This document shows, in pieces, positions 10,760 through 38,699 of a DNA stretch of 41,348 nucleotides. Under the pieces are notes generated by a model. That model did not search any database. It saw only the letters and a program-made list of their open reading frames with translations, and was not told the DNA's origin. This DNA is from Nitrospirota bacterium (GTDB lineage: Bacteria; Nitrospirota; Thermodesulfovibrionia; Thermodesulfovibrionales; UBA1546): NCBI GenBank assembly GCA_016208915.1, contig JACQXE010000039.1, forward strand, positions 1 through 41,348. The letters run 5' to 3'. The first letter of the stretch is position 1. The number at the start of each line of letters is the position of its first letter. Position numbers and translations under genes: made by a program.

Positions 10760-10789
10760 AAAAGGGGAACAGAATTCGGTTCCCCTTTT
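10760..10789 (-). terminator. Rho-independent terminator of PEP-CTERM operon 2
   Basis: An 11-bp perfect stem, AAAAGGGGAAC (10760-10770) with GTTCCCCTTTT (10779-10789) and an 8-nt loop. Read on the minus strand it runs into a T tract just after the PEP-CTERM gene at 10812; A/T flanks on both sides could make it bidirectional. Confidence 0.85.
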
Positions 10790-10811: not shown

Positions 10812-10880
10812 TTATTTTCTAAACTTCCTTCTTCCATACAGTGCTAACCCAAGAAGCCCGCTGCTGAGGAGGAGGAGAGT
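10812..10880 (-). repeat. PEP-CTERM tail direct repeat, copy 1
   Basis: These 69 bp match 11482-11550 with one difference by eye (T at 10865 against C at 11535). They encode most of the sorting tail including the stop codon, while the rest of the two genes is unrelated. Confidence 0.9.
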
Positions 10881-11438
10881 TGAGGGTTCTGGAACGCTTA
10901 CTCCTGTGAAATGAACTGCATCGAGATAACCACCTAGTGTATCACTTACCCCTCCAGCACGAAACTCTATTGTTGAGAGAGCGTCAGTTGCCGTTACAAA
11001 ATAATGATGGACAGTCCAGTTAGTATCCGAACCGCCAGTACCGGTTAGAGAATCAAGCAATACACCTTCGAAATATACATCGATAATATTAGAAGTAATG
11101 GCTACCCCTGGACGTGGTGAATATGCAAAATTTAAATCATAGGTCGTTCCTGCTGCAGTAGAAATGTCCTGCCTCATGCCACTATTGCCCCAACTGTCTA
11201 ACTCAACCAGTTGGTTCCCATCAAAAGGAGTCCCTGCCGCATGATTCTGAATTTCAATAGTTCCAAAAGTTGCTATCCATCCGGGAATACTGGTGTAGGA
11301 ACCGTTCCACGTTCCCCAAGATAATGCCGGTTCCTCAAAACTACCGTTAGTTATCAAATCTGCGTTAGCATACGTAAGAGGCATTATTGTCATCATTATA
11401 CTCATGACGAAGACTTTGATAAATTTCATATTTCTCAT
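10812..11438 (-). CDS. PEP-CTERM protein with DUF642/lectin-like domain
   Basis: Secreted protein of about 208 residues. A signal peptide (FIKVFVMSIMMTIMPLTYANA) precedes a beta-rich domain starting LITNGSFEEPALSWGTW, typical of DUF642 or galactose-binding-like PEP-CTERM proteins. The C-terminus is a full sorting tail: VPEPSTLLLLSSGLLGLALY then RRKFRK, i.e. PEP motif, hydrophobic helix and basic end, which exosortases recognise. ATG at 11438 fits a GAGGG ribosome binding site better than the upstream GTG. The tail DNA is almost identical to that of the next gene upstream. Probably transcribed from the sigma-54 promoter near 12270. Confidence 0.88.
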   Translation of the reverse strand: MRNMKFIKVFVMSIMMTIMPLTYANADLITNGSFEEPALSWGTWNGSYTSIPGWIATFGTIEIQNHAAGTPFDGNQLVELDSWGNSGMRQDISTAAGTTYDLNFAYSPRPGVAITSNIIDVYFEGVLLDSLTGTGGSDTNWTVHHYFVTATDALSTIEFRAGGVSDTLGGYLDAVHFTGVSVPEPSTLLLLSSGLLGLALYGRRKFRK

Positions 11439-11481
11439 TTTCACCCTCTTTTTTTATTAGATTTTGATATGAATTTTAGAA

Positions 11482-11550
11482 TTATTTTCTAAACTTCCTT
11501 CTTCCATACAGTGCTAACCCAAGAAGCCCGCTGCCGAGGAGGAGGAGAGT
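11482..11550 (-). repeat. PEP-CTERM tail direct repeat, copy 2
   Basis: Second copy of the 69-bp tail-coding segment at 10812-10880. Identity drops sharply just upstream of the PEP codons. Confidence 0.9.
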
Positions 11551-12225
11551 GTTGGGTTCTGGTACTTTATGTCCGTTGCTTTCTGCATCATGTGAAAATG
11601 GCGCAAATTTAGTGGCGTCTCTATCTTCTCCAGTATTAGGGTCGTCAATATTAGTATTATAAAGATCGAAATGGATAAAATAACCTGACTCCAGATTTGT
11701 TGTGTCAATATTAAATATTCTTTTGTACATTTTATCACCAGTGTTATCCGGCTCAGGATCGGTTGGGGCAGTATTATAAGGGGTAACCCATGTGTTTGGA
11801 TCAAACTGAAACGCAAACTCATAAAAATAGGTGTCAAATATGCCATGACCGGGCAAATCGTGATCAGGATTGCCAGAATAAATCTCTATAGGAGGAGTTC
11901 CATATGTCATATCTGAGGTTACATTTATTGTGTGTGTAATCCCATTATAGGTAAACGAAAATGAACCGAGGTCAGGGGCTGTCATGTCTGTTTTTGGTAT
12001 AACTGCCATTGAAAGGTAGTAAGTATCGCTTGTTGTGTTTTTGCCTTTTTTGTCAGGCAGAAGATATGTGAATAGATTAAATGGATTGGTAGTCGCAACA
12101 ATTGTTTCAGTTAAAGTGTTGTAAGTCCCATTTTCTATATCAAGCTGTAAGACTGGTATTGCCCCTGCAATCCCTGCTATTCCAAGCACTAACATCATAA
12201 TTCCTAAAATAAGTAATTTTTTCAT
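11482..12225 (-). CDS. PEP-CTERM protein, choice-of-anchor-N-like
   Basis: Secreted 247-residue protein. The signal peptide is residues 1-22 (LLILGIMMLVLGIAGIAGA). The mature part begins IPVLQLDIENGTYNTLTETI, which resembles the choice-of-anchor N family of PEP-CTERM proteins; a DxD-rich loop (DPEPDNTGD) may bind calcium. The tail is VPEPNTLLLLGSGLLGLALY then RRKFRK. A clear AGGAGGAT ribosome binding site precedes the ATG. It is first in a two-gene operon under a sigma-54 promoter at 12263-12278. The family assignment of the body is from memory of its N-terminal pattern. Confidence 0.85.
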   Translation of the reverse strand: MKKLLILGIMMLVLGIAGIAGAIPVLQLDIENGTYNTLTETIVATTNPFNLFTYLLPDKKGKNTTSDTYYLSMAVIPKTDMTAPDLGSFSFTYNGITHTINVTSDMTYGTPPIEIYSGNPDHDLPGHGIFDTYFYEFAFQFDPNTWVTPYNTAPTDPEPDNTGDKMYKRIFNIDTTNLESGYFIHFDLYNTNIDDPNTGEDRDATKFAPFSHDAESNGHKVPEPNTLLLLGSGLLGLALYGRRKFRK

Positions 12226-12262: not shown

Positions 12263-12278
12263 AGCAATAATTATGCCA
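12263..12278 (-). promoter_or_regulatory. Sigma-54 promoter of PEP-CTERM operon 2
   Basis: Minus-strand TGGCATAATTATTGCT has the required GG-N10-GC spacing. Predicted start of transcription is about 27 nt before the ATG at 12225, with the ribosome binding site between. Confidence 0.8.
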
Positions 12279-12329: not shown

Positions 12330-12347
12330 GTGTAAAGTTTTCCGACA
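12330..12347 (+). promoter_or_regulatory. PEP-CTERM regulatory box, copy 1
   Basis: GTGTAAAGTTTTCCGACA, 18 of the 19 box positions. It lies about 53 bp upstream of the -24 element and is the likely upstream activating sequence for the NtrC-type regulator at 15714. Confidence 0.75.
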
Positions 12348-12573: not shown

Positions 12574-12592
12574 GTGTAAAGTTTTCCGACAC
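12574..12592 (+). promoter_or_regulatory. PEP-CTERM regulatory box, copy 2
   Basis: A perfect GTGTAAAGTTTTCCGACAC about 300 bp upstream of the operon-2 promoter, with its own IHF match at 12520-12532. It could act as a distal enhancer or be a leftover of a duplicated promoter. Confidence 0.7.
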
Positions 12593-12712: not shown

Positions 12713-13348
12713 CTATTTCCTAAACCTTCTTGCTATGCCAACTCCGACAAGACCTGCTCCGAGAAGCAGAAGAGTTGCCGGCTCTGGAATAGGATTAACA
12801 CCTGAGGCATCACCACTCATGTTATCCACTAAGAAATAGTTTCCTGAGTCATGAACCATTACATAGTCAAAAAACTGTCCGGATGGAGCTGTAATCATAA
12901 GCCAGCCCATATCCGAGCCGTTTAAATTTCCAGAACCAGAAGCAGAAGCAATTAAATTACCTGAAGAATCATATCCCTCCAAATAAAAATTGCTATAGCT
13001 TGTGTATCCGGTCTTAAACCATGTGCCGTCATTATTAGTGAAGTCTATTTTGCCTGAGCCTGCATTATTGTCAGTGCCTAAAAAAGCAAAGACATAACCA
13101 TAATGCTGGTAGTATGCACCGTTCCATGAAAGGCCAAGGTCTATAGATTTCGTATTCCAGTTGTTTGAATTTGAATCGCCGTAGATCCAATCATAACCAC
13201 CGGTCACTTCAAATGTCACGCCAATAATGTCATCAATTGCCTGCTGATCTTTCCCAAAACCACTTTCAAAATCAATGAAGAAGGCTTGGGCTGTTGTTGC
13301 TGCAAAAACAAAAAGCACAAACATTATTAGTAAGCTAAATTTTTTCAT
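12713..13348 (-). CDS. PEP-CTERM surface protein
   Basis: Secreted protein of about 211 residues. The signal peptide FSLLIMFVLFVFAATTAQA is followed by a beta-rich body beginning FFIDFESGFGKDQQ with many Gly/Ser/Asn/Tyr, then the tail IPEPATLLLLGAGLVGVGIA and RRFRK. ATG at 13348 has a GGAG sequence 10 bp ahead; an ATG at 13363 (five residues longer) is also possible. Only 9-23 bp separate it from the preceding PEP-CTERM gene, so the two are an operon ending at the 12631 terminator. The body family is not recognised. Confidence 0.85.
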   Translation of the reverse strand: MKKFSLLIMFVLFVFAATTAQAFFIDFESGFGKDQQAIDDIIGVTFEVTGGYDWIYGDSNSNNWNTKSIDLGLSWNGAYYQHYGYVFAFLGTDNNAGSGKIDFTNNDGTWFKTGYTSYSNFYLEGYDSSGNLIASASGSGNLNGSDMGWLMITAPSGQFFDYVMVHDSGNYFLVDNMSGDASGVNPIPEPATLLLLGAGLVGVGIARRFRK

Positions 13349-13371
13349 AGTTGACATCTCCATTCAAATTC

Positions 13372-14100
13372 CTATTTTCTCCGTCTTGCTGCAAAACCAA
13401 GCCCTAACAGTCCAGCGCCAAGCAGGAGAAGAGTTGACGGTTCAGGAACTGTTCCTTCAAAGACATCATTAGCGCAGGTTGGCGCCCAGTGGAATGCCAG
13501 ATCAGCATTGGCGAACAAACTTTTATCAATAGTGAAGTTAAGAATATCCCCGGATATTGACCATGTGCCTATTGCTAAAGCATTCGCAGTAGTAGAATAC
13601 TGGACTTCCTGATCTGAACGATACCAGACCCCATCAGGACCCCAGTTATGAAGAGCATCAAAATAGTTAGAAAGTAGTATGCTACCAGTGCTGTCTATTG
13701 CATACAGACTCAACGTGCCGCCGCTTGTATTTGTATGATCATCAAGGACAAGTGCATACTCCCAACCGCCATTAGTGTAGTCATCATCATAATAGTGAGG
13801 CCCAGATCCCATTACCTGCCAGCCATCAATACTGACAAAAAGGTCTCCGAGTTGAGTGTTGCTATGGCCAATATTGTAGAGATAGTTTGTCTGTATATCA
13901 ACATACAGATTAGAGGCGTCTCTGCTTACATCCATTTGACTTATTTCGAAAAAGGCAGGGCCTCCAATAACATCTCTATCACCTTTACCGTTGCCGTTGT
14001 CAAAGTTGCCGTAGTAGTTGTCCATGATAGCTGCCTGAGCATTCGCACCAGCGATGAGCAACAGGGCAATCATTAAGCCAAATATTGTTATCTTCTTCAT
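13372..14100 (-). CDS. PEP-CTERM surface protein
   Basis: Secreted protein of about 242 residues with signal peptide KKITIFGLMIALLLIAGANA and a body rich in Asp/Asn/Gly (YYGNFDNGNGKGDRDVIGG) that may bind calcium. The tail is VPEPSTLLLLGAGLLGLGF then AARRRK. ATG at 14100 is chosen because AGGAGGTG lies just upstream; an open frame reaching 14154 would place that site inside the gene. First gene of an operon with a textbook sigma-54 promoter at 14202-14217. The body resembles PEP-CTERM proteins with YDxxY/DUF-type beta domains but is not assigned. Confidence 0.86.
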   Translation of the reverse strand: MKKITIFGLMIALLLIAGANAQAAIMDNYYGNFDNGNGKGDRDVIGGPAFFEISQMDVSRDASNLYVDIQTNYLYNIGHSNTQLGDLFVSIDGWQVMGSGPHYYDDDYTNGGWEYALVLDDHTNTSGGTLSLYAIDSTGSILLSNYFDALHNWGPDGVWYRSDQEVQYSTTANALAIGTWSISGDILNFTIDKSLFANADLAFHWAPTCANDVFEGTVPEPSTLLLLGAGLLGLGFAARRRK

Positions 14101-14201
14101 CTTTACACCTCCTTTCATAATTGAATTTAATCTTATTAGAAATTTTTTTATCATTATTTAAGCTCCTTTCGCAAATTTATCTATTATCTATAATAAATAG
14201 A

Positions 14202-14217
14202 AGCAACTTCTGTGCCA
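14202..14217 (-). promoter_or_regulatory. Sigma-54 promoter of PEP-CTERM operon 1
   Basis: Minus-strand TTGGCACAGAAGTTGCTT is close to the TGGCAC-N5-TTGC consensus with GG-N10-GC spacing; the best sigma-54 match in the window. Confidence 0.9.
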
Positions 14218-14278: not shown

Positions 14279-14297
14279 GTGTAAAGTTTTCCGACAC
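14279..14297 (+). promoter_or_regulatory. PEP-CTERM regulatory box, copy 3
   Basis: Perfect GTGTAAAGTTTTCCGACAC, about 62 bp upstream of the -24 element of operon 1. Confidence 0.8.
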
Positions 14298-14704: not shown

Positions 14705-15712
14705 ATGCATAAATATGTTTTTACCATAGATCATGAGCTTAAAATAAGTTCATGGGATAAAGGGCTGGAAACACTGACAGGAAAAGATTTCTCTTCTGTA
14801 AAGGGAGTCCCATACTACGAAGTCTTTCCGCGAATATGCAATGGCGCTAATGATGCAGCACTTGAGGCTTTAACCAATGGTAAGCCCCAGATACTTAAAG
14901 GGAACAGAAATATCTGTCTTTATGGGACTAACGAGACAGATATCAACATTCAGCCTCTGAAAGATGATTCTGAAAAGCTGATTGGCGCTACCATAACAAT
15001 AGAACCATGCGTTTCATGTCAGATATGGGAAAAGTTTCAGCAATCGCAGCCGCTTATAGATATAGGCAAGATAGCATCAACACTTGCCCACGGTGTGAGA
15101 AGTCCATTAAACGCGATAAAGGGCGCTGTTATATATATAAAAGAGCGATATGCTGAGGAGCAAACGCTTATCGAATTTTCAAAGATAATGGAAGATGAGA
15201 TCTCAAGGCTTGATACATTTGTCTCAAAGTTCCTCAGCGCTTCTGTATTTGATGCAGACCTTTCAGAGACTGATGTAAATAAAGTCTTGAAGAAAATAGA
15301 GATATTTACCTCCTTTCAGGCAAAATCGTTTGGAATAAAGACAACGTATGAGTATGGTGATATCCCTCCTGTAAGGCTTAGTCCTTTTCAACTTGAGCAG
15401 GCAGTCTTGAACGTAATAAACAATGCAATAGATGCAATGGGCTCAAATGGGCATCTAAAGGTTAGGACATATAAGGAAACGGGCAGCGGCGCTGATTTTG
15501 TTGTGATTGAGATTTCAGATACAGGGCCGGGTATGTCCAAAGGCAGGTTGAAGGATATATCAATTCCTGTTGATGGCAAGGGCCGGGGATATGGCCTGTT
15601 CATCACACGTGAGGTCATTAAGTCTCAGGGAGGTCATGTTGAGATTCAGAGCGAAAAAGGCGCAGGAACCAAAGTAAGATTGTATCTTACTCTGAGGAAA
15701 ATCGAGAATTAA
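14705..15712 (+). CDS. Soluble PAS-domain sensor histidine kinase
   Basis: The 335-residue kinase has no membrane segment. A PAS domain (about 1-100, MHKYVFTIDHELKISSWDKG) is followed by CVSCQIW, a Cys pair that may bind a cofactor or metal. The HisKA helix holds the phospho-acceptor His in LAHGVRSPLNAIKG (near 139). The ATPase domain has N box NVINNAIDAM, G1 ISDTGPGM and G2 GRGYGLFI. One base separates it from the regulator gene, so they form a cognate pair. PEP-CTERM loci often carry a membrane kinase, PrsK, about twice this size; this soluble form differs. The ribosome binding site is weak. Confidence 0.9.
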   Translation: MHKYVFTIDHELKISSWDKGLETLTGKDFSSVKGVPYYEVFPRICNGANDAALEALTNGKPQILKGNRNICLYGTNETDINIQPLKDDSEKLIGATITIEPCVSCQIWEKFQQSQPLIDIGKIASTLAHGVRSPLNAIKGAVIYIKERYAEEQTLIEFSKIMEDEISRLDTFVSKFLSASVFDADLSETDVNKVLKKIEIFTSFQAKSFGIKTTYEYGDIPPVRLSPFQLEQAVLNVINNAIDAMGSNGHLKVRTYKETGSGADFVVIEISDTGPGMSKGRLKDISIPVDGKGRGYGLFITREVIKSQGGHVEIQSEKGAGTKVRLYLTLRKIEN

Positions 15713-15713
15713 G

Positions 15714-17060
15714 ATGGATACGAACGGAAATGGAAAAGTTCTGATTGTTGATGATGAGCCTAATGCAATAAGAGTCTTGTCCGCGATACTTTCAAAAGAG
15801 GGATATAATGTTTTTGAGTCGTTTAATGTTGAAAAGGCGCTACAGGTAATGGATACGATGGATGTGGATGCAGTGATTACAGACGTTAAAATGCCGGATA
15901 AGGACGGAATGCAGTTTTTTGAACATATCAACGAACATTATCCTGACATTCCTGTTATCTTTCTTACAGCATTTGGCACTGTTGATTCCGCTGTCCATAC
16001 CATGACTCGCGGCGCATTCTACTATTTCATAAAGCCGCCTGACTATGTAAAACTCAAGGGCATATTGAAAATGGCAGTTGAAAAGAGGCATCTTAAGAGA
16101 GAGATAGAAAGCCTGAGAGAGCGCCTTGCGCGGAGCGGGGGCAACATGCGCCTTATCGGCGCAAACCCTGAGATGCTTAAGATCCTTGATACCATAGCGG
16201 CAGTCAAAGATTCGACAAGTAATGTGCTGATATGCGGTGCGACAGGCACAGGCAAGGAATTGATAGCAAAGACATTGCATTATGACAGCATCAGGAGAGA
16301 CCGTCCATTTGTTGCAGTGAATTGCGCGGCGATTCCAAAGGAACTAATAGAGTCTGAACTCTTTGGATATGAAAAAGGGGCATTTACAGGAGCATTTTCA
16401 GGTAAACCGGGCAAGTTTGAGGAGGCATCAGACGGCACGCTTTTTCTCGATGAGATAGGCGAACTTGACCTTTCGCTTCAGGCAAAACTGCTCAGGATAC
16501 TTCAGGAGAGGGAGATTGAAAGGCTCGGAAGCAACAAAAAGATTAAGGTAGAGTTCAGGCTGTTGTCATCTACGAACAGGGATCTTAAAAAAGAGATTCA
16601 GACAGGCAATTTCAGAAAAGACCTTTTCTACCGTATAGACGTTGTTCAGTTAAATGTTCCTTCATTAAGAGACAGAAAAGAAGACGTCCCATTGTTTATA
16701 GCAGAATTCATAAAGGAATTCTCTGCGAGGGAAAAGAAGATTGTAAAGGTATCAGATGAGGTCATGAATATTTTGCAAAACTATTCATGGCCCGGTAATG
16801 TCAGGCAACTGCGCAATGTTATAGAGAGGGCGGTTGTCCTTGCGGCAAAAGATAAGATTACGCTGAAAGACCTGCCGGATGACTTTTTATTGCAGGCCAA
16901 GCTATCGGTATCAGCAGGTAAGATAAAAACACTAAGAGAGATTGAATTGCATGCTGTGAAGGAGGCGCTTAAGGAGTGCAAGGGCAATAAGTCTAAGGCA
17001 GCCAAGATGCTTGGAATCTCAAGAAAGACCTTTTACCAGAGGCTGAACAGGCTTCATTAA
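15714..17060 (+). CDS. NtrC-family sigma-54 response regulator, PrsR-like
   Basis: The 448-residue activator has three domains. The receiver (about 8-120) has the acidic pair VDDE, phospho-Asp in [11 protein letters not shown] and Lys in FIKPP. The AAA+ domain (about 145-375) has Walker A GATGTGKE, the sigma-54-contacting GAFTGA loop, Walker [11 protein letters not shown] and arginine-finger region LFYRIDV. The Fis-type helix-turn-helix is at the C-terminus ([19 protein letters not shown]). It is like the PEP-CTERM-box regulator family. The GTGTAAAGTTTTCCGACAC boxes at 12330-14329 next to sigma-54 promoters are its likely targets; that link is inferred. Confidence 0.93.
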
Positions 17061-17089
17061 TTTTATTGTATCTTAAGTATACACATACT

Positions 17090-17240
17090 ACTGGCAGGAG
17101 ATAGTATTTGAGCTTATTCTTGGTCGTTCCGAAATGACTCCTCCGCCTCAGGCGGATTCGCCAAGGCGAAGAGATATTTTGCCTAAACCTATTGAAATAT
17201 CAGCAAAATAAAACCGCGAAAATACTGTCTTCTGACAAGT
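17090..17240. repeat. Inverted-repeat (MITE-like) element, copy B
   Basis: Left end ACTGGCAGGAGATAGTATTT (from 17090) is the imperfect inverse of the right end (to 17240; reversed ACTTGTCAGAAGACAGTAT). The inner cores GATATTTTGCCT and AATATCAGCAAAATAAAACC match copies A and C. The variable part carries the palindromes CCGCCTCAGGCGG and TTCGCCAAGGCGAA. Confidence 0.7.
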
Positions 17241-17252
17241 GAACCTGAGAAT

Positions 17253-17285
17253 CTATAAATTATCTATGAATTATCTATAAATTAT
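17253..17285. repeat. Three 11-bp tandem repeats upstream of the polysaccharide operon
   Basis: CTATAAATTAT occurs three times head to tail, the middle unit with one change (CTATGAATTAT). Eleven bp is about one helical turn, so the units face the same side of DNA. They lie about 155 bp before the sigma-54 promoter at 17439 and could bind a regulator. Confidence 0.7.
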
Positions 17286-17438
17286 ATAGGGCAGGATTCT
17301 AAATGTGTATCCTTATTATACAGCAAAATAAGGGTAATCCTGGTTTCTGTATCTTTTATATACACTTCAGGCTTAAAGAAAAGCTAAAGATTTTTTTGTA
17401 ACTCAAAATAATCACATAAAATCAAGCAATTTCCTTTA

Positions 17439-17454
17439 TGGCATATAATTTGCT
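17439..17454 (+). promoter_or_regulatory. Sigma-54 promoter of the polysaccharide operon
   Basis: TGGCATATAATTTGCT has GG-N10-GC spacing. The predicted start is near 17465, only about 5 nt before the ATG at 17470, so the first gene would be almost leaderless. A near-IHF site (AATCAAGCAATTT, 17420-17432, one mismatch) overlaps the upstream side. No copy of the 19-bp box is seen here. Confidence 0.65.
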
Positions 17455-17469
17455 AAACATTTATTATTC

Positions 17470-17850
17470 ATGATAGGCAAACAAGGCATAATAATCTTTG
17501 ACGAAGAGGGGTTTGCGCGTGTCTGTAGCGCCATGCTCGTTGCTGAAGGATACATTGTCGAAACCTTATCGACAGCAGACAAACTCCCTTCAGCATTGGA
17601 AGGCGGCAATTTAGAATTAATAATAACGAGTTATCCTTACAGCGCTTCTGTTTTTGAAGATATAAAGAGAAAAGGTATTCCAACAATAATTCTTGCCGAC
17701 AATATAAACAAAGAACTTATCGAAATATTAAATGCTTTTGACAATTCATACTGCATGATCAAGCCGCTTGATTACTACAGATTCAGGCACCTTGTCAGGC
17801 AAGTTATGGTTGGCGATTTAAGACATGAAGGAGGATATGCAATTGTTTAG
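17470..17850 (+). CDS. Receiver-like protein lacking the phosphorylation Asp
   Basis: The 126-residue protein has receiver-domain layout: beta-1 IIIFDEEGF with acidic residues, beta-3 LELIITSYPYS, beta-4 PTIILAD and beta-5 CMIKPLDYYRFRHLV with the conserved Lys-Pro. At the end of beta-3, where the acceptor Asp normally stands (IITDxxMP), there is Ser, so it is probably a pseudo-receiver working by protein binding. No output domain is attached. The N-terminus cannot be much shorter because beta-1 starts at residue 5; no ribosome binding site is visible. It overlaps the following TPR gene by 14 bp and heads the operon. Confidence 0.75.
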   Translation: MIGKQGIIIFDEEGFARVCSAMLVAEGYIVETLSTADKLPSALEGGNLELIITSYPYSASVFEDIKRKGIPTIILADNINKELIEILNAFDNSYCMIKPLDYYRFRHLVRQVMVGDLRHEGGYAIV

Positions 17851-20611
17851 AAAACTTTCTTCGATTTTAATGATATTTTTGCTTGTTACAGGTTGCGCAA
17901 GCAAGACAAAAGAAGAGTTGTTTAACGAGGGCATGAAACAGATTAGGGGAAACAATCCTAACAGCGCAATAATATTTTTTAAAAACGCGCTCGAAAAAGA
18001 CAGCAATTTCTTTGATGCCCGTTTCCAGCTTGCCAAGGCCTATTACATGACAGGGAAAATAGATTCGGCTGAGAAAGAACTTCAGAAGGTGATGAGACAG
18101 AATCCCAATTCAAAGGAAGTTCAGATTGAACTTGCAAAAGTCTATCTGCAGAAGGCAAAGCCTGAAGATGCGCTCAAGATGATTTCTCCTTACATCAAGG
18201 ATGGATCAGGAGATGCGGATGTCCTTGAAATTGCCGGATGGGCGCACGCCATGAAGAATGAGTATACAGATGCTTTAGCAGTATTGAAAAAGGCGATCTC
18301 TTTGCCTGATGCAAAACCAACAGTGCCGCTGACCCTTGCAAGGGTTTATCTTAAGATGGATAAACTCCCTGATGCAAAATCGCTCATACTTGAGACGATA
18401 AAAAAAGACCCTTCAAACAAACTTGCACTTTATACTCTTGCTGAACTGCAGACCAGAGAAAAAGATATCGACGGCGCTATTAAGACCTACGATCAGATGC
18501 TGAAAGATAATCCTTCAGAGAGCGAAGCGGTTTCCAGAAAGGGCATGCTGTATATAGATAAAGGCAGATATGATGAAGTGGTTTCTTTATCAGAGGGTCT
18601 TATTAAAGAATTCCCCAAGAGACCGGAGGGTTACAGGTTAAAAGGCATTGCGCTTTTCCATAAAAAGAATTTAAATGATGCAATTGTTGCACTCCAGAAG
18701 TCGCTCTCTATTTATCCAAATGTCGCAGCATATTACTTTCTTGGCCTATCCCATTTTTATAAGAATGAATTTGAGCAGGCAACGACCCAGCTTCAAAAAG
18801 CGCTCGAAATTAATCCTTCCTTCTCGCAGGCAAATGTGCTTATCTCTTTAATTCTGCTAAAGAAGGGCAGGACTGATGATGCGATTAATGAGATAAAAAA
18901 GGTGCTGGAGAAAGATGAAAACAATGCGCTTGCCCATAACATCCTCGGAAGCGCCTACATGGCAAAAGGAATGCATTCCGAAGGTATGGAAGAACTTAAC
19001 AGAGCGGTCGAAATTAACCCAAAACTGGTAGATGTTCATATTAAGAAGGGAATTTACGAACTAAGCAGGGGAAGGTCCAAGGAGGCGGAGACAGAGCTTA
19101 AGAGCGCTGTTAAAGCAAATCCTGAAATACTTGATACAAAGGTAATGCTTGCCTCTTATTATCTGAAGCAAAACGAGTACAGTAAAGCGATTAGTGTGCT
19201 TAATGAGGGCATTAAGGGACAAAAGACAGATGCAGTGTTTTACAATCTCATTGCAGAGGCATTACTGCGTCAGAATAAGGCCTCGGATGCATTTAAATAT
19301 CTCCAGAAGGCAAAAGAGTCAAGTCCAGATTATGAAGCCTCTTATTTTAATCTGGCCTCATTTTATATCTTTAAGGGAGAACATGAGAAGGCAATACAGG
19401 AACTCAAATCTCTGATAGAAAGATCGCCCCAAAATGTGAAAGCATTCATCACTCTTGCAGGGATTCTCGAATCCAAGGGCAATGACGGGCTTAAGTTTTA
19501 TCTTCAGGCAAAAGAGACAGGAAAACCCGAGGCATATGTTGAGCTTGCAAAATACTACATAAGGAAGAAAGATCAGGACAAGGCAATAAAAATTACCACT
19601 GAGGGAATCAAGAAAAATCCGTCGGATGTTGCCGGCTATGAATTAAAGGGCAAGATACTTATCTCCCAGAAAAAATTTAATGAAGCATTGGAAACTTTTG
19701 CTTCATTGGAAAAGATAAATCCTAAAATCAGCCTCGCATACGTTCTTAACACTTACATAGCAATGAATAAACCTGAAAAGGCGCTCGACAGGCTGAAGAA
19801 AGAGTTAAAGAAAAAGCCTGATCAGCCTGAGATTATGGCAGAGGTATCTAAGATTTATAAAAGCATGAATAGAAAACAGGATGCAATAGAAAATGCAAAA
19901 ATGATAATAAAACAAAAACCGGAATCGCCAATCGGATACATAACTCTCGCTTCAATTTATCAGGAGGATAAGGAAACTGAAAAGGCGATCGAGGCGCTTA
20001 AAAATGCAAGAAATATAAAAGACGCAAATCTTTTTATGATGCTCGGAAATCTCTATACTTCCAAAAAGGAATATGCATCAGCGCTTGAGCAGTTCAGCAG
20101 AGCTGAAGAAATAAAACCCGGTTTTATCCCTGCCATATTTCAAAAAGGCGCTGTATTTCATGCAATGGGTAAAAAAGATAAGGCTATAGCCGAATATCAG
20201 AGAACCATAAGGCTTTCTCAGAATTATGTGCCGGCGTTAAACAATCTTGCCTATCTCTATGCAGAGGACAATAAGGATATCTCAATGGCTCTCCAGTTAG
20301 CTGCTCGTGCATATGCTATATCTCCTAATGACGGATTTGTGCAGGATACGCTCGGCTTTGTTCTGCTTAAGAATAAGAAGGTTGAGGACAGCATAAAGGC
20401 ATTTAAAAATGCCATAGAGATTGTGCCGAACAATCCGACTATTTATTACCATTTGGCGCTTGCGTATAAAGAGCACAATGAAGGTGCAAAGAGCATAGAG
20501 ATGCTTCAAAAAGCTATCTCATTAGGTAATTTTACAGAGGCTGAACAGGCGAAATCTTTGCTTAGTAAATTGCAAAAGAGTAACGGCCAGAGCTTAAGCA
20601 ATAAAAGATAA
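17837..20611 (+). CDS. prsT: Giant TPR-repeat lipoprotein, PrsT-like
   Basis: About 924 residues with a lipoprotein signal (LSSILMIFLLVTGCAS, lipobox VTGC) and then TPR units almost to the end, many with the A-x-x-x-Y/F...A-x-x-x-x-x-K-A-(I/L)-x-x-x-P pattern. This matches the TPR lipoprotein of PEP-CTERM/exosortase polysaccharide loci, thought to sit in the periplasm attached to the outer membrane and organise export. An AAGGAGG site lies at 17828-17834, so ATG 17837 or TTG 17843 is more credible than the ATG at 17825, which precedes that site. It overlaps the pseudo-receiver gene. Confidence 0.88.
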   Translation: MQLFRKLSSILMIFLLVTGCASKTKEELFNEGMKQIRGNNPNSAIIFFKNALEKDSNFFDARFQLAKAYYMTGKIDSAEKELQKVMRQNPNSKEVQIELAKVYLQKAKPEDALKMISPYIKDGSGDADVLEIAGWAHAMKNEYTDALAVLKKAISLPDAKPTVPLTLARVYLKMDKLPDAKSLILETIKKDPSNKLALYTLAELQTREKDIDGAIKTYDQMLKDNPSESEAVSRKGMLYIDKGRYDEVVSLSEGLIKEFPKRPEGYRLKGIALFHKKNLNDAIVALQKSLSIYPNVAAYYFLGLSHFYKNEFEQATTQLQKALEINPSFSQANVLISLILLKKGRTDDAINEIKKVLEKDENNALAHNILGSAYMAKGMHSEGMEELNRAVEINPKLVDVHIKKGIYELSRGRSKEAETELKSAVKANPEILDTKVMLASYYLKQNEYSKAISVLNEGIKGQKTDAVFYNLIAEALLRQNKASDAFKYLQKAKESSPDYEASYFNLASFYIFKGEHEKAIQELKSLIERSPQNVKAFITLAGILESKGNDGLKFYLQAKETGKPEAYVELAKYYIRKKDQDKAIKITTEGIKKNPSDVAGYELKGKILISQKKFNEALETFASLEKINPKISLAYVLNTYIAMNKPEKALDRLKKELKKKPDQPEIMAEVSKIYKSMNRKQDAIENAKMIIKQKPESPIGYITLASIYQEDKETEKAIEALKNARNIKDANLFMMLGNLYTSKKEYASALEQFSRAEEIKPGFIPAIFQKGAVFHAMGKKDKAIAEYQRTIRLSQNYVPALNNLAYLYAEDNKDISMALQLAARAYAISPNDGFVQDTLGFVLLKNKKVEDSIKAFKNAIEIVPNNPTIYYHLALAYKEHNEGAKSIEMLQKAISLGNFTEAEQAKSLLSKLQKSNGQSLSNKR

Positions 20612-20647
20612 AAATCAATCCCAAAAAGGGACGGATAATATTAATTA

Positions 20648-20689
20648 GCCTTCTCAGTGTACGGCTCGCAGAGATGTAACTGAGAAGGC
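20648..20689 (+). other. Perfect 11-bp inverted repeat in the leader of the export gene
   Basis: GCCTTCTCAGT (20648-20658) pairs with ACTGAGAAGGC (20679-20689) around a 20-nt loop, between prsT and the export gene. No T tract follows, so it is not an ordinary terminator. It could be an RNA stabilising or attenuating structure, or a protein site. It does not match a riboswitch class I can recognise. Confidence 0.6.
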
Positions 20690-20746
20690 GGAGCATTGCC
20701 TGAAGCATATAGTTTAGAATATACGGAATCGGAATAAGGAGGAAGA

Positions 20747-21988
20747 ATGAGAAAAAGGGTTTATTTTATATCTTCAATATTTTTGATATCAATCACAGTT
20801 TTTACTTCAAGCTGTGCAACGATAGGTAATCTCACAACGCCATTAGGCGAGCAGACGGCATCTGAGATAACAGATATAAATATACAGAGCAACAAGATAA
20901 CAGTGAAAGCGAATAATCCATTCGAATATACAATTTACAGGTCAAGCAACCCCTATAAAGTAGTTGTAGAATTTCCCAATGTGAGTATAGGCGCTTTTAA
21001 TCAAAGGATTGTTCCTGAAAATACAGGCATAACCGAGATACTCCCTTCCCAGATAGCCCCGCCATTTGCACCTATAAAATCTTCAAAGCTCGAAATTTTT
21101 CTGAAAGAGATATCTATGATAGAACCTGAATATGGAGACAATACACTTGTAATAAAATTTAACGAAGTATCACCTAAACAGATATTGAAAGAAAAGAAAG
21201 ATGCTCTTGAACCTCAAAATGCATCACAAATCATGCCCATTACAAGTGACTATTTTATTGGTGATGAGGATATGCTCCAGATATCTGTATGGGGAAACCC
21301 GGAATTAGGTGTGCATGTTCCTGTGAGACCTGATGGCAGGATATCTGTTCCTTTGGTAGGAGATGTCAGGGCTGCTGGAGTAACCCCTCAGGAACTGAAG
21401 GCAGCGCTTGAAAAAGAATTTACGAGATTTGTTAAGGCGCCTACTGTGAGCGTGATAGTAACAGCTGTCAACAGCTTCAAGGTATATATACTCGGCGAGG
21501 GGGTAACAACATCAGGAGCTGTAACATTGAAGAGGAACACTACTTTGATGCAGCAGCTCGCGCAGTTCGGTTCACTCAAAAATGCTGATCTGAATAATTC
21601 ACACGTCTTAAGGGATGGACAGAAACTAAATGTGGATTTCTATAAGCTTATAGTTAAAGGTGATGTTGCACAGGATATACGGCTTAAGCCTAATGATGTG
21701 ATATTTATCCCTGATAATTTTGAAAAACGCATTACAGTTGTTGGCGCTGTAAAAAAACCGACCGTCATTCCATACAGAGAAGGCATGACTGTCCTTGATG
21801 CCATATTAAGTGCGGGTGATTTTACAGAATTTGCAAAACAAAATGATGTCGTAGTGGTGAGGAAAGAAGGCAGTGAGGTCAGGAATATAGAGGTAAGGTT
21901 AAAGGATGTAATAAAGGGCGGAGAGATAAGCAAGGATATTCCTCTAAAGCCGGGGGATCTTATAATTGTGAAGACAGGAATCTTTTAG
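20747..21988 (+). CDS. Polysaccharide export lipoprotein (Wza/EpsA-like) with AMIN domain
   Basis: Outer-membrane polysaccharide exporter of 413 residues. The lipoprotein signal has lipobox TSSC (residue about 24). An AMIN-like domain (about 38-145, VKANNPFEYTIYRSSNPYKV) precedes the Poly_export domain (YFIGDEDMLQISVWGNPELG, about 166-250), then two SLBB-type domains (FKVYILGEGVTTSG and ITVVGAVKKPTVIPYREGMT). Wza homologues form the octameric exit channel. The AMIN domain is an addition to the basic Wza plan and may bind peptidoglycan. A GGAGGA site precedes the ATG. The chain-length gene starts 9 bp after it. Confidence 0.92.
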   Translation: MRKRVYFISSIFLISITVFTSSCATIGNLTTPLGEQTASEITDINIQSNKITVKANNPFEYTIYRSSNPYKVVVEFPNVSIGAFNQRIVPENTGITEILPSQIAPPFAPIKSSKLEIFLKEISMIEPEYGDNTLVIKFNEVSPKQILKEKKDALEPQNASQIMPITSDYFIGDEDMLQISVWGNPELGVHVPVRPDGRISVPLVGDVRAAGVTPQELKAALEKEFTRFVKAPTVSVIVTAVNSFKVYILGEGVTTSGAVTLKRNTTLMQQLAQFGSLKNADLNNSHVLRDGQKLNVDFYKLIVKGDVAQDIRLKPNDVIFIPDNFEKRITVVGAVKKPTVIPYREGMTVLDAILSAGDFTEFAKQNDVVVVRKEGSEVRNIEVRLKDVIKGGEISKDIPLKPGDLIIVKTGIF

Positions 21989-21996
21989 GAGGATGT

Positions 21997-23571
21997 ATGC
22001 AAGAAGATAGCTCGCAAAATTTTGATATAAAACAATATTGGGCTGTAGTTTTAAAAAGGAAGTATCTTGCGCTCTCAGCAGGACTGATAGTGCTCTCAGC
22101 CTTTACATGGGGTAGTTTTGTCTGGCCTAAGACCTACGAGGCAAATTCTACTGTGTTTATAGAGAGAAGTTCTGTAATGGATCCTCTGATTAAAGGCGTT
22201 GGCGTATCTAGCAGCATGGAGGAAAGATTAAAGATCCTGAAAGAAAGCATCACAACAAGGAATATTATAGATCGTGTTATAAAAAAACTTGATCTGGATG
22301 TAAACATTAAGAACTCGAAAAAATATGAAGAATTTATAGATAATATAAAGGAAAATCTTAATGTAAAAATCAAGAGCTCTCGCGGTAGGGGAGATGAAAT
22401 GGCGCAGCTGTTTAACATTTCATATAAAGGAAAAGATCCCAAAACAGTAAGAGACATGGTCAATACCCTTGTCAGTGAATACATAGAGGAAAATATGAGT
22501 TATAAGAGAACTGATACCTCTAGCGCCTATGAGTTTATAAATAGCCAGCTACTGGAATACAAGAAAAAATTAGACGAATCAGATAAGGCTATACGGGAGT
22601 TCAGAGAAAAACATCCTAATATGATTCCCAAGAATGAAACCACACTGTTGGGAAGGGTAGAAAACTTTGAGGCAGCTATCATAGAGACAGAGATTAGATT
22701 GAAGGAGTCCATGAGGAGACGTGATAACCTCCAGAAACAGCTTTCTGGAGAAAAAGAGCTGACGGTGACAATGATTACAAAAGAAAGTCCTCAGGCAAGG
22801 CTTAACAATTCGAACAATCAACTTATGCTCTTGATGACAAAATACACAGACAGCTATCCTGAGATAATAAAGACAAAAAACGAGATAGAGGAACTCAAAA
22901 AACAGATAGCTCAGGCAAAGGTTACGAGCAATGACAACACAGGTTCTGAGACCGCTACCACGAATCCGGTCTATCAGCAGCTTAGAGAAGACATTGCCAA
23001 GACAGAGGCTGAAGTAGAATCGTTAAAAGCAAGGAATTCTGAGCTTATAAGACAACAAAAGATTGCGCAGGGAGTCTTGGGACGCATGCCTAAGGAGCAG
23101 GAAGAATGGGCAAAGTTTCAAAGGGACAGGAATGTATACCAGAAAATATATGATGACCTCCTTCAGAAACTCGAAAATGCAAGGGTCTCAAAAGAGCTTG
23201 AGACTGCTGACAAGACAGCAAATTTTAAGATTGTGGACCCTGCAGTATTTCCAAATATGCCTGTCTCGCCAGACAGGGTAAAGATGATACTCTTGGGAAT
23301 ATTTTTGGGTGTTGCTTTTGGTATAGGCATAGCCTTTGGCCTTGAATATCTTAATCCTTCTTTCAAGGATGAAAATTCTATTGAGACCAGATATAAATTG
23401 CCGGTGTTTGCTGTAATCCCCCAGATAATTACAGAGGAAGACAGGCTTTCTGCAAAAATGCTCAATAGAAAGATATTTGCTGCAGCAGGCGCTTATCTCT
23501 TCATTATAATATTGGTGCTGGCAAGAGAAGTTCTGAACAGGTATTTGGGGATTGCAATTATTAATTTTTAG
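21997..23571 (+). CDS. Polysaccharide chain-length determinant (Wzz/GNVR family)
   Basis: Inner-membrane polysaccharide co-polymerase of 524 residues. Two transmembrane helices frame a long periplasmic part: TM1 LALSAGLIVLSAFTWGSF (about 29-46) and TM2 VKMILLGIFLGVAFGIGIAF (about 429-448); a third hydrophobic stretch (IFAAAGAYLFIIILVLA) lies near the C-terminus. Between are coiled coils (about 170-390) and the GNVR-type segment EWAKFQRDRNVYQKIYDDLL. The Pro-rich VVDPAVFPNMPVSPDR pattern before TM2 is characteristic (here IVDPAVFPNMPVSPDR). The kinase is encoded separately next door, as in exosortase-linked loci. An AGGAGG site overlaps the preceding stop. Confidence 0.9.
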   Translation: MQEDSSQNFDIKQYWAVVLKRKYLALSAGLIVLSAFTWGSFVWPKTYEANSTVFIERSSVMDPLIKGVGVSSSMEERLKILKESITTRNIIDRVIKKLDLDVNIKNSKKYEEFIDNIKENLNVKIKSSRGRGDEMAQLFNISYKGKDPKTVRDMVNTLVSEYIEENMSYKRTDTSSAYEFINSQLLEYKKKLDESDKAIREFREKHPNMIPKNETTLLGRVENFEAAIIETEIRLKESMRRRDNLQKQLSGEKELTVTMITKESPQARLNNSNNQLMLLMTKYTDSYPEIIKTKNEIEELKKQIAQAKVTSNDNTGSETATTNPVYQQLREDIAKTEAEVESLKARNSELIRQQKIAQGVLGRMPKEQEEWAKFQRDRNVYQKIYDDLLQKLENARVSKELETADKTANFKIVDPAVFPNMPVSPDRVKMILLGIFLGVAFGIGIAFGLEYLNPSFKDENSIETRYKLPVFAVIPQIITEEDRLSAKMLNRKIFAAAGAYLFIIILVLAREVLNRYLGIAIINF

Positions 23572-23584
23572 CGGGAGGATATAG

Positions 23585-24466
23585 ATGAGCAGAATAGAAA
23601 AAGCATTAGAGAAGGCAGTAAAAATGAGAGAGGCAGCAAAAGAGCCTGTCTCATCGGAAGGCACAATTACTCATGACACGAAAGACGCTCATCCTGTATT
23701 CGAAGCAGGCACCTCTTTCTTGGATGCTGCATCGGTTGACAGGCATCTTATCTGCATAACAGAGCCTTACTCTCTTGCAGCAGAACAATATAAGAAGATG
23801 CGCGCACAGATATTGAAGGCAACAGATAATGGCGTTCTTAATACTATTATGGTTGCAAGCTCAGATATGCAGGAAGGCAAGACGATAACAGCAATTAACC
23901 TTGCTGTTACCATGGCAAGTGCGGTTGACTATACAGTTCTCCTGGTGGATGCTGATCTTAGAAATCCCTCTATTCACAAATATCTCGGCATTAAACCTGA
24001 ATACGGGCTTTCTGATTATCTTGCAGGTAAAGTAAAAATCTCAGATGTGCTCATTAAGCCGGGCATCGGGAACCTCATAGTCCTGCCGGCAGGTGAGCCG
24101 CCTCAAAATCCTGCTGAACTGCTTTCTTCAGAAAGGATGAAGAACTTAGTGCAGGAACTGAAAGTCAGGTATAAAGACAGATATGTCATCTTTGATTCGT
24201 CGCCTATACTCTTAACAGCAGATTCCCTTTCGCTTTGCAATTTTCTGGATGGCATTCTTTTTGTAATTCAGGCGGCACACACATCGGAAAAAACTGCAAC
24301 AAAGGCGCTTTCTCTGATAAAGGGTCATAATGTGCTTGGCATTGTATTTAATAACGCCCCTAATTTCCTTATGAAAAATCTCTATTCCTATAATTATTAC
24401 CGCTACGAAGCAAAAACAAATAAATCAAATGGCAATAACGGAGGAAATGTTGAAGAAAAATCATAA
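23585..24466 (+). CDS. Tyrosine-protein kinase of the CpsD/CapB (BY-kinase) type
   Basis: The 293-residue cytoplasmic kinase partners the chain-length protein in controlling polymerisation and export. Walker A is ASSDMQEGKTITAINLA (about 99-115), Walker A' VLLVDADLRNPS, and Walker B YVIFDSSPIL. A tyrosine cluster near the C-terminus (YSYNYYRYEAK) is the expected autophosphorylation tail. N-terminal SRIEKALEKAVKMREA is typical of exosortase-associated members. It follows a GGGAGG ribosome binding site. Its end overlaps the next gene by 20 bp. Confidence 0.92.
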   Translation: MSRIEKALEKAVKMREAAKEPVSSEGTITHDTKDAHPVFEAGTSFLDAASVDRHLICITEPYSLAAEQYKKMRAQILKATDNGVLNTIMVASSDMQEGKTITAINLAVTMASAVDYTVLLVDADLRNPSIHKYLGIKPEYGLSDYLAGKVKISDVLIKPGIGNLIVLPAGEPPQNPAELLSSERMKNLVQELKVRYKDRYVIFDSSPILLTADSLSLCNFLDGILFVIQAAHTSEKTATKALSLIKGHNVLGIVFNNAPNFLMKNLYSYNYYRYEAKTNKSNGNNGGNVEEKS

Positions 24467-25727
24467 TTATAAAATTCCGAATCACAAACAGGCGCGTGGA
24501 ATCTGGAAATCAGGATTTAGAGTCTTATTATTCTTTGTTATCTTTTGTTATTCTGCAGAATCGTACGGCACGGAGTTTTCAGTACAACCTTCGGTTACTC
24601 TCAAAGAAGAATATGATAACAATATCTTTCTCACAAAGGATAACAAGGTTGATGATTATATAACCCGAGTTATGCCCTCGATGAAAATGGATTACAAAGC
24701 TATGTTATGGGAGTGGTCGCTGGATTATACGTTCAAGTGGTGGTACTACTCTAAAAGGGGGAAAGAGGATAATTCCCAGAATCTTAATCTGATCTCAAAG
24801 ACTAAGGTAATAAGCAATTTTCTTTATTTTGATGTTTCTGACACTTATGCAAGTGTGGTGTTCGAGCCGAGAAGACCCTCAACAGAAGACAATCTTGGCA
24901 TAAATAGAACAGATTCAAACAATTTCATTGCCTCGCCCTACATAAAATACCGGTTAACTGATTCAACATCTTTATCCGTTGGATACAGATATACAAATAT
25001 CTGGTATAAAAAAGAAGGAAGCATAGACAGGCAGATGCATACAGGTTTCACAAGCATTGAACATATTTTTAGTCCAAGGCTGAGCGCATCAATCAGCGGA
25101 GACTATACTCAAGACAGGCCTGATATGGCTGTATCAGAGAATAACCAGCAATCGGCGTCTCTAAAGTTAATCTATGCGATAGATCCGAAAACTAAATTCA
25201 ATGGCAGCATAGGCTACAAATGGATTGATTTTTCACACAGGGGAAATGAGGACAGGCCTATCTATAATGCAGGGTTAATGCGTAGTCTCTATGGCAACGG
25301 CTATATAGAGTTAACAACAGATTCAGCTTTTACTACCTCTCCCCTCCATGGTATTTATGAGAGGAAAAAAAATGAACTTGCAGCCAAGTATGGCCAGATA
25401 ATTTCAGTCAGCTGGAGCATTTTTCAGCGTAAGGACAAATATGTAGAGGTAAACAGAAAGGATTATGCAACAGGCGGCACCCTTGGCTTTGAGGTCAAAC
25501 CTTACGACAGATTCGTATTTAAGATCACAGGCAAATACGAAAAGAATAAATTTATGCCTGAAGGAGAAAAGAGAGAAATTTACGGCTTATCAGAAGAGAT
25601 AGGCTATAAATTTACAAATAAAACTTCAATGAGTCTGAGTCATGGCTATAACATGGAAAATGCAAGAACCAACCTCAATGATTATACCAATCATGTGATA
25701 GCTATGCAGATTAAAACTGAACTGTGA
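24447..25727 (+). CDS. Outer-membrane beta-barrel protein of the PEP-CTERM/EPS locus
   Basis: Protein of about 426 residues. A membrane-spanning signal segment (FRVLLFFVIFCYSAESYG) comes about 22 residues in, then EFSVQPSVTLKEEYDNNIFLT, a start shared by barrel proteins of exosortase-associated loci. The rest alternates aromatic and polar residues in amphipathic strands (SLSVGYRYTNIWYKKEGS, ATGGTLGFEVKPYDRFVFKI) up to a terminal strand VIAMQIKTEL. GGAGG lies directly ahead of ATG 24447 (TTG 24450 is equally spaced); an ATG at 24429 would add six residues. Probably an outer-membrane part of export; the exact role is unknown. Confidence 0.78.
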   Translation: MLKKNHNYKIPNHKQARGIWKSGFRVLLFFVIFCYSAESYGTEFSVQPSVTLKEEYDNNIFLTKDNKVDDYITRVMPSMKMDYKAMLWEWSLDYTFKWWYYSKRGKEDNSQNLNLISKTKVISNFLYFDVSDTYASVVFEPRRPSTEDNLGINRTDSNNFIASPYIKYRLTDSTSLSVGYRYTNIWYKKEGSIDRQMHTGFTSIEHIFSPRLSASISGDYTQDRPDMAVSENNQQSASLKLIYAIDPKTKFNGSIGYKWIDFSHRGNEDRPIYNAGLMRSLYGNGYIELTTDSAFTTSPLHGIYERKKNELAAKYGQIISVSWSIFQRKDKYVEVNRKDYATGGTLGFEVKPYDRFVFKITGKYEKNKFMPEGEKREIYGLSEEIGYKFTNKTSMSLSHGYNMENARTNLNDYTNHVIAMQIKTEL

Positions 25728-25734
25728 GATAACA

Positions 25735-26784
25735 ATGTACAAAACCTTTTTTGGATTTAAATGCAGACCCTTCCAGCTCACTCCGGATCCTGAATTCCTT
25801 TTCATGAGTAGGGTTCATAAGAGGGCATTGACATATCTTAATTACGGGATAAGCGACAATTTCGGATTTATCCTCATAACAGGAGCGATAGGCACAGGCA
25901 AGACAACGATAATCAGGGCGTTATTAAAAAAGATTCCGAACGAGATAAAAATTGCGCGCATTAACAACACGAAGGTCACATCGCATCAGCTCATCTCTCT
26001 GATAAATGATGATTTCGGTCTCGATATCAAAGGCAAGGACAAGACACAACTATTAGGCGACCTGACAGACTTTCTTATAAAACAATATGCAGAAGGCGGA
26101 AGGTCTGTCCTGATAATTGACGAAGCGCAGAATCTGTCTGCCGATATGCTCGAAGAGATAAGGCTTCTCTCAAATCTTGAGACAGATAAATCAAAACTGC
26201 TCCAGATAATCCTTATAGGCCAACCTGAACTCAATCTCACACTCAGCAAGCCCGAGTTGGAGCAGTTGAGGCAGAGAATAGCCATCAATACATATATCAG
26301 CCCATTGACCCGCGATGAAACAGAGTCATACATCAGGCACAGGCTTAAAGTTGCCGGGAATGAGAATGCCGTAAGATTTGAAAATGGTGTAATAGATGTA
26401 ATTTATGATTTCAGCAAAGGCACGCCAAGACTGATAAATATCCTTTGTGAATTTGTTTTTTTAGCTTTATTTGCTGAAGAAAAAAAGATAATTGATCTTG
26501 CTCTCATCAAAGACGTAATAGGGGATCTTATTCATGCAAGACCTGAAACAAAGGCGAACGAATTAATTTCTCAATCCCCTCCAAGAGAGGAAATTCCTGA
26601 AAAATTAAAAAAGGCATTAAGAAGTTTTTCTCAAAGACTGCTCACTCTTGAGGCTACGGTTTATGAGATGCAGAATGGAACTCTTATAAACGGCAAAAAA
26701 AAGAGACAGCCATCAATAAACGGCGAATCAGATAATGGGAAGAAAGAATTATCAGAAGGGCAATACACAGGTTTGAAGAAATAA
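25735..26784 (+). CDS. ExeA-like AAA ATPase of the exosortase/EPS locus
   Basis: The 349-residue ATPase starts MYKTFFGFKCRPFQLTPDP, the standard opening of the GspA/ExeA-like ATPases and of their exosortase-linked relatives. Walker A is TGAIGTGKTT (about 49-58), Walker B VLIIDEAQNLS, sensor LIGQPEL and arginine-rich RQRIAINTYISPL. Unlike ExeA there is no peptidoglycan-binding or membrane segment; the C-terminal 80 residues are charged and possibly coiled. It starts 7 bp after the barrel gene. It likely energises or positions envelope machinery. Confidence 0.88.
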   Translation: MYKTFFGFKCRPFQLTPDPEFLFMSRVHKRALTYLNYGISDNFGFILITGAIGTGKTTIIRALLKKIPNEIKIARINNTKVTSHQLISLINDDFGLDIKGKDKTQLLGDLTDFLIKQYAEGGRSVLIIDEAQNLSADMLEEIRLLSNLETDKSKLLQIILIGQPELNLTLSKPELEQLRQRIAINTYISPLTRDETESYIRHRLKVAGNENAVRFENGVIDVIYDFSKGTPRLINILCEFVFLALFAEEKKIIDLALIKDVIGDLIHARPETKANELISQSPPREEIPEKLKKALRSFSQRLLTLEATVYEMQNGTLINGKKKRQPSINGESDNGKKELSEGQYTGLKK

Positions 26785-26817
26785 TTTCTGAAACCTTCCC
26801 CTGCCTCAAAACAACTT

Positions 26818-36131: not shown

Positions 36132-36440
36132 ATGACAGTTGAAATATCAGAAAACAAACAACATCTGATTGATAAGCTTACTGATGTAATCAGAACCCAT
36201 CTGCATCCCAAGAAAATACTCCTTTTCGGCTCGAGGGCAACAGGAAGAGACAAAAGTTATTCGGATTTTGACATAGCTGTGGAAGGGGTAGAAATAAACA
36301 TACGGAAAGAACGCCTCGTTAAAGAAGCGCTTGATAGAAGACTCGGAATTTTCACAGTTGATTTAATATATCTTGACAGTGCAGATAAAGATTTTAAAGA
36401 CCTTGTCTTAAAAACAGGGAAAGTCCTCTATGAGCAATAA
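36132..36440 (+). CDS. MNT-domain nucleotidyltransferase (MntA-like) 1
   Basis: The 102-residue minimal nucleotidyltransferase keeps the active site GSRATGRDKSYSDFDIAV (GS-x10-D-x-D, about 36-52) and a third acidic residue in TVDLIYLD. In HEPN-MNT modules this protein AMPylates and silences the HEPN RNase. Its stop overlaps the partner gene by 11 bp. A 31-bp stretch of its active-site codons (36226-36256) recurs at 39924-39954. Confidence 0.85.
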   Translation: MTVEISENKQHLIDKLTDVIRTHLHPKKILLFGSRATGRDKSYSDFDIAVEGVEINIRKERLVKEALDRRLGIFTVDLIYLDSADKDFKDLVLKTGKVLYEQ

Positions 36441-36834
36441 TCTTGAGTATGCCCTTAAGAAGCTGAGAACAGCCGCTCAACGCCTAAAAGAATCAACGGC
36501 AAAAGCAGTGGATGAACTTGACAGGGACGGAGTAATAAAAAGATTTGAGTTTACCTTTAAATTGCCGGGCGACTTAGTCGAGACAATTTCTAATAAAGAG
36601 ATAATCGGACTCCTTATGGATAAAGCATTGGGCAGATTGGAATATTATCAAAGTAGATGCAATGAATTTAAAGAAAAATATCGCATAGATTTTATCTCTT
36701 TCAAAAAAAAGGTCGAGAAAGCAAAGGAAGAGAGTTTCACAGAGTGGGATGACTTGATGGTATGGGAAGGCTATGAACTTGGCTATCAGGAATGGAAGAA
36801 AAAATATGAGGAACTAAAAGGTTGTATGGAATAA
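36430..36834 (+). CDS. HI0074-like/HEPN partner fused to a second antitoxin-like domain (chimera)
   Basis: A 134-residue protein. Residues 1-45 (LEYALKKLRTAAQRLKES, DGVIKRFEFTFKL) match the start of HI0074-type substrate-binding HEPN proteins, the normal partner of MNT genes, but the family's AWKTLKD continuation is missing. From about residue 46 (KEIIGLLMDKALGRLEYYQS, EWDDLMVWEGYELGYQEWKK) the sequence looks like the small antitoxin paired with TumE/DUF6516-type toxins. The reading frame is intact across the junction near 36565. A deletion fusing two neighbouring modules is the simplest explanation. Confidence 0.7.
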   Translation: MSNNLEYALKKLRTAAQRLKESTAKAVDELDRDGVIKRFEFTFKLPGDLVETISNKEIIGLLMDKALGRLEYYQSRCNEFKEKYRIDFISFKKKVEKAKEESFTEWDDLMVWEGYELGYQEWKKKYEELKGCME

Positions 36835-37818: not shown

Positions 37819-37839
37819 AATGTTATAAAACGCTTAGCG

Positions 37840-37945: not shown

Positions 37946-37999
37946 AATAAAATAAAAAATTATGCTATATTTGTTTATAAGTAATGAGCAGGAGGTTCT

Positions 38000-38681: not shown

Positions 38682-38699
38682 CATCGCCTGTTATTTCAA

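Follow-up and report, generated by a model that had tools for sequence, protein, structure and literature searches.

In the window, i.e., the whole stretch of 41,348 nucleotides that was analysed, two tandem genes encoding PEP-CTERM proteins with unrelated bodies end in almost the same DNA, and we propose, with a probability of about 0.7, that the tail-coding DNA was copied locally between them. The tail is considered to have been copied as DNA because the codons are identical, the bodies are unrelated, the DNA is present only twice in the genome and divergence sets in directly on both flanks. It was claimed in an earlier note on this DNA that the sorting signal moved as DNA, and this claim is well supported here, with the same pattern recurring in other genomes.

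Both genes lie on the minus strand, and up to the stop codons their last 69 bases (10812-10880 and 11482-11550) are equal at 68 positions, just as had been counted by eye, with the single mismatch being T at 10865 and C at 11535 on the plus strand, i.e., AGC (Ser) versus GGC (Gly). The likeness extends upstream as far as the V of VPEP, and over this length copy 1 (11482-11565, minus strand) and copy 2 (10812-10895, minus strand, 670 bp from copy 1) agree at 79 of 84 bases. Taken over a tail stretch of 93 bases the identity is 83/93, and the similarity is a bounded tract with unlike flanks: the 60 bases before the tail agree at 20 positions and the 60 bases after the stop codons at 17, with no similarity on either side. 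The 84-bp tails of the pair have a shared DNA origin, and its edges are sharp, at the PEP motif on one side and at the stop codon on the other. Since the other five PEP-CTERM tails of the genome have Gly at the position of the sole mismatch in the last 69 bases, the DUF642-like copy probably holds the later mutation as far as this base is concerned, which gives no indication of the donor gene. Because the copies are 670 bp apart, they enclose exactly the leader and the body of the DUF642-like gene, and from this layout it would be expected that recombination between them deletes the DUF642-like gene and leaves the first gene whole.

The upstream gene of the pair (11482-12225, minus strand, 247 amino acids) encodes a choice-of-anchor N protein, matching NF038141 with 151 bits (cut-off 40) and PF07589 at its C-terminus with 29.3 bits (cut-off 20.7). 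The downstream gene (10812-11420, minus strand) is DUF642-like or choice-of-anchor C-like; its tail matches PF07589 with 30.0 bits against the same cut-off, while its body gives sub-threshold family matches, to TIGR04362 (E = 7e-16, 58.8 bits of 120) and to PF04862 (23.5 bits of 27). Between the two genes is a leader of 61 bases (11421-11481, minus strand), which is unlike the stretch that follows copy 2; the list of open reading frames starts the DUF642-like gene at GTG 11444, and a Shine-Dalgarno-like AGAGGG precedes ATG 11420. The description of the bodies as unrelated, one DUF642-like and the other choice-of-anchor-N-like, holds, because the best BLASTP match between them has E = 0.43 and they belong to different families; the detectable body-to-body similarity that a tandem duplication of the whole gene would leave is absent. 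Both C-termini have the PEP motif, the hydrophobic stretch and the basic end of PEP-CTERM proteins, and both N-termini, as read from the open frames, have a basic and a hydrophobic stretch. Judged from the tail alone, both proteins would be sorted by an exosortase, and the same genome matches PF09721 (cut-off 25.7) on contig C15 (154.8 bits) and on contig C37 (44.4 bits). The second of these exosortase-family proteins (L258:2943-3503) is nearest to the archaeosortase B and exosortase H models, all under their cut-offs except the general signature model.

At residues common to both tails the codon is identical in 25 of 26 cases, and the codons common to both include rarely used ones (CTC 0.18, GGG 0.14 and CCC 0.14). 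With the codon usage of 21 window genes, the expected identity is 47.1/69 and the maximum in 200,000 simulated pairs is 61/69, to be compared with the 68/69 observed; under this local usage, the probability that every codon for a shared residue agrees within the last 69 bases is 10^-11.7. The other two tails of the cluster, those of PEP3 and PEP4, had been described as alike only at the protein level, and so they are: they have 19 residues in common with identical codons in only 6, and the remaining tail pairs of the genome have 1-6 identical codons.

The pair looks like one operon. An intrinsic terminator, with an 11-pair stem and then a T-rich stretch, lies after it (10760-10789, minus strand), and ahead of it are an exact pattern match to a sigma-54 -24/-12-like site (TGGCATAATTATTGCT; 12263-12278, minus strand) and two exact matches to the PEP-CTERM box (TGTCGGAAAACTTTACA), the proximal copy at 12331-12347 and the distal one at 12575-12591, both on the minus strand. 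An exact pattern search found neither a sigma-54 site nor a PEP-CTERM box ahead of the DUF642-like gene, and sigma-70-like matches in the pair region are no commoner than in shuffles; the DUF642-like gene is probably read from its neighbour's promoter. The PEP-CTERM box with the 3' end TTTACA and the control of PEP-CTERM genes by box and sigma-54 have been described (PMC1569441, 2006), and RpoN dependence of one PEP-CTERM gene was shown in Aquincola (PMC9850573).

Two further PEP-CTERM genes with tails outside the shared class lie nearby on the minus strand, PEP3 (12713-13363; PF07589 29.9 bits; few shared codons) and PEP4 (13372-14154; PF07589 34.7 bits; placed outside by codon comparison), the latter having by pattern matching its own sigma-54 site (14202-14217) and PEP-CTERM box (14280-14296). 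Directly adjoining is a cluster of the XrtA/PEP-CTERM system (14705-27975, plus strand), with a sensor kinase, a PrsR-like regulator, PrsT, an export protein, a chain-length determinant, a tyrosine kinase, an ATPase and a sugar transferase, where the PrsT, export, chain-length and ATPase families are above their cut-offs. The response regulator and sensor kinase (16046-17574) do not reach the cut-offs of PrsR and PrsK, even though the window has exact matches to the PEP-CTERM box. It is also noted that the right end of the window (36132-41108) has several nucleotidyltransferase/HEPN-like and PIN-like small gene pairs, which by eye are toxin-antitoxin-like.

The nucleotide search of the genome that had been proposed, run with the 84-bp segment on the whole 2.51-Mb assembly of 88 contigs, finds the segment in two places only, and these are neighbours; PEP-CTERM tails above the Pfam cut-off number six. 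The sixth of them (L004:1501-2100, contig C8) has an open frame of just 49 codons, and its gene looks interrupted by an upstream stop. Another, on contig C9 (L256:6494-7216), has a body that by eye resembles the choice-of-anchor N protein; their tails are alike in protein (21 of 28 positions) and unlike in their codons (6 shared). Among the 395 other genomes of the phylum no similar tail DNA was found, the best being a tail at 73% DNA identity on another body in G088, a genome of the same order. For the DUF642-like body the 396 genomes of the phylum contain no homologue at E <= 1e-4, none of the close relatives carries the pair, with the same-family genomes having no orthologs, and the choice-of-anchor N body has distant relatives only, 36% identical in G022 and up to 51% in proteobacteria. 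The body of PEP3 has a 73% identical relative in G095, yet the tails of these two share only 12 of 23 residues, which is no higher than the 11-17 of 23 in common between the PEP3 tail and unrelated genes of the source genome. In PEP3 the pattern of a tail that goes with the genome and not with the body is therefore visible at the protein level too.

We also surveyed 154 tails with their bodies from 13 PEP-CTERM-bearing genomes of several phyla, divided into set 1 (7 genomes including the source genome; 18 close same-strand pairs and 695 other pairs, all with unrelated bodies) and set 2 (6 genomes; 11 close same-strand pairs and 282 other pairs). In set 1 a tail identity of at least 90% is reached by 5 of the 18 close pairs, all five within 2 kb, versus 0 of the 695 others, and 0 of 20,000 shuffles of the tails within genomes were as extreme. 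Set 2 has 1/11 versus 2/282, which alone is not significant (p = 0.11). With the sets pooled, 6 of 29 close same-strand pairs versus 2 of 977 others reach 90% (Fisher p = 9e-9, with the pairs non-independent and from three loci), the three independent loci of the close positives being the window, an array common to the beta-proteobacterial genomes G407 and G409, and a locus in G476; the remaining 23 of the 29 close pairs are under 90%. Both distant pairs above 90% on unrelated bodies belong to the scattered tails of Blastopirellula (G413). Moreover, whole-gene duplicates in G088, with bodies matching at E = 2e-125, have tails at 76%, less alike than the tails of unrelated neighbours. In the surveyed genomes the pair counts show near-identical tail DNA on unrelated bodies to be mostly a neighbour effect. 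Genome-wide dispersal was considered as the main mode and rejected, as no distant pair of set 1 reaches 90% and in set 2 only those of Blastopirellula do. The G413 tails themselves (L239-L252) are very uniform, of the EPTSLAIFGIGALCMGAGAARRRRKEKQAAEA type, with up to 92% DNA identity on different contigs, and some are on bodies with no detectable similarity; here the pattern is one of dispersal and not of local sharing.

The clearest view of what such repeats can do is provided by the beta-proteobacterial array, which lies in a Sulfuritalea genome (G407) and a Rhodocyclales genome (G409) within common flanking DNA that is 89-95% identical. Between the two genomes the DNA of array genes A and B, which are unrelated to each other, is 76 and 79% identical in the bodies and 93 and 90% in the tails. 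Inside either genome, A and B (and in G409 a third gene, C) have tails identical to each other at 85-88 of 90 bases, above every codon-usage simulation, where the identity expected in these GC-rich genomes is already 71-72/90. The repeat of the two arrays (L254:5471-7399 and L253:5194-6356) is about 145 bp (145-147) long and includes the terminator. The body of gene C is absent from the whole G407 genome, and when one 777-bp tail-to-tail period is removed, G409 aligns without a break to G407; the present/absent difference therefore has both ends in the tail-terminator repeat. As G407 equals G409 minus exactly one such period, recombination at the tails would therefore add or remove array genes there. 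In G407 the A tail departs from the B tail at 2 of 93 bases, compared with 6-7 between orthologous tails, but A and B of G409 also differ at 6. Sites split two against two in the A and B tails sort 2 by genome and 0 by body, and with the 3' flank added, by eye on the alignment, four by genome versus one by body; the count of such sites is small because body B occurs in just two of 101 genomes. Small as it is, the count favours homogenisation after the split of G407 and G409. Upstream of gene A, a stretch at L253:7247-7277 matches the very end of the array tail, the codons for KAAA plus the stop, and may be what is left of an array gene since lost. Tail plus terminator was rejected as a general copied unit: it holds for the beta arrays and G476, and the block in the window ends at the stop.

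For the window, the copying would have occurred by recombination between closely spaced repeats, of which we consider two variants. In one, gene conversion or template switching overwrote an existing tail; in the other, the DUF642-like gene entered as a cassette between two tail copies. In either variant the DUF642-like protein bears its neighbour's tail and, as the system is known to work, should be recognised by the same exosortase. The further claim that the pair is a direct view of how a protein acquires such a tail can be kept in part: the DNA copying stands, while the DUF642-like gene may already have ended in a PEP-CTERM tail of earlier date, which the copy then overwrote.

The main rival, which we regard as unlikely but by far the most serious of those considered, is that the whole choice-of-anchor N gene was duplicated in tandem and a DUF642-like body then replaced one of the two. 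Just this anatomy is seen in G476, where the best pair of set 2, tandem and with unrelated bodies on a single 3.63-Mb contig, has its near-identical tails inside a larger tandem duplication, extending over 476 bp at 81.5% on one side and over 196 bp at 74.5% on the other, the latter being the decayed end of a neighbouring miaA-like gene; duplication followed by body replacement is therefore another existing route. In the window, however, no other repeat of at least 30 bp joins the two genes, their leader, body and 3' flank are without similarity and the pair has no second promoter region. It is improbable that an unsampled third source supplied the two tails independently of each other, or that there is a mobile tail cassette: the 73% identical tail on a different body in G088 could be read in this way, but a third copy in the genome and anything closer among the 395 other genomes of the phylum are missing, and the edges have no terminal repeats or transposition genes. 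An assembly artefact is less probable still, for although the metagenome-derived assembly is in 88 contigs, the 84-bp repeat is below common read length and inside a 41-kb contig, both copies are in intact open frames, each with its own differences, and the pattern recurs in other assemblies, including the single contig of G476. Strong codon or sequence constraint giving equal identity in independent tails, for which the short, leucine-rich tails and the higher identity expected in GC-rich genomes could speak, is refuted by the different codons used for the same residues in the genome's other tails, by the shared rare codons and by simulations that never attain the observed value. The two findings that the earlier note had said would overturn its reading, codon constraint and identity extending into the bodies, are thus both absent, the bodies being unrelated and the edges abrupt, and because neither holds, copying of the tail as DNA is well supported.

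The pair, and the same pattern in arrays of other bacteria, suggest that a secreted protein can take its sorting tag from an adjacent gene or have it in common with that gene. For the spread of short C-terminal sorting tags over many unrelated proteins, the usual argument is from protein similarity alone; in this pair a trace can still be read in the DNA, and it points to the adjacent gene as the exchange partner. From this it is predicted that gain, loss and homogenisation are concentrated at the tail repeats of tandem arrays, and the two related beta-proteobacteria already supply one present/absent difference of which each end falls in the repeat of tail and terminator. We tentatively propose, as a possibility somewhat short of even odds, that PEP-CTERM tails, in some lineages together with the terminators, are recombination joints through whose repeats tandem arrays gain or lose whole secreted-protein genes. 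If this is true, a newly arrived body receives the tail and the promoter of the locus in a single step, and the set of surface proteins can change with the neighbour genes undamaged.

Finally, we compare the pair with known systems. A literature search for PEP-CTERM paired with gene conversion gave no top match, which is weak evidence given the partial journal coverage. The choice-of-anchor family names (NF038141, TIGR04362) stand for different anchoring tails in different species. Both window bodies resemble these NCBIfam families; the names record the outcome, and the window gives DNA evidence of how two such bodies can share a tail. The modular spread of PEP-CTERM is known from proteins since 2006, when Haft and colleagues inferred from protein trees and counts that the tail, as a module, had undergone recent expansion by paralogy (PMC1569441), with no mention of conversion or recombination; what is new here is the local, DNA-level evidence. 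As in that work, tails within a genome are closer than across species, bodies are unrelated and PEP-CTERM genes turn over rapidly between close relatives; unlike there, the identity is seen in the DNA, synonymous sites included, with sharp edges and in tandem neighbours. The pair is also like the concerted evolution, or gene conversion, of prokaryotic paralogs (for example PMC6053082), where copies in one genome are unexpectedly alike through repeat recombination, with the difference that in the present case homogenisation is confined to a 3' module of about 70-150 bp, on bodies that are unrelated.
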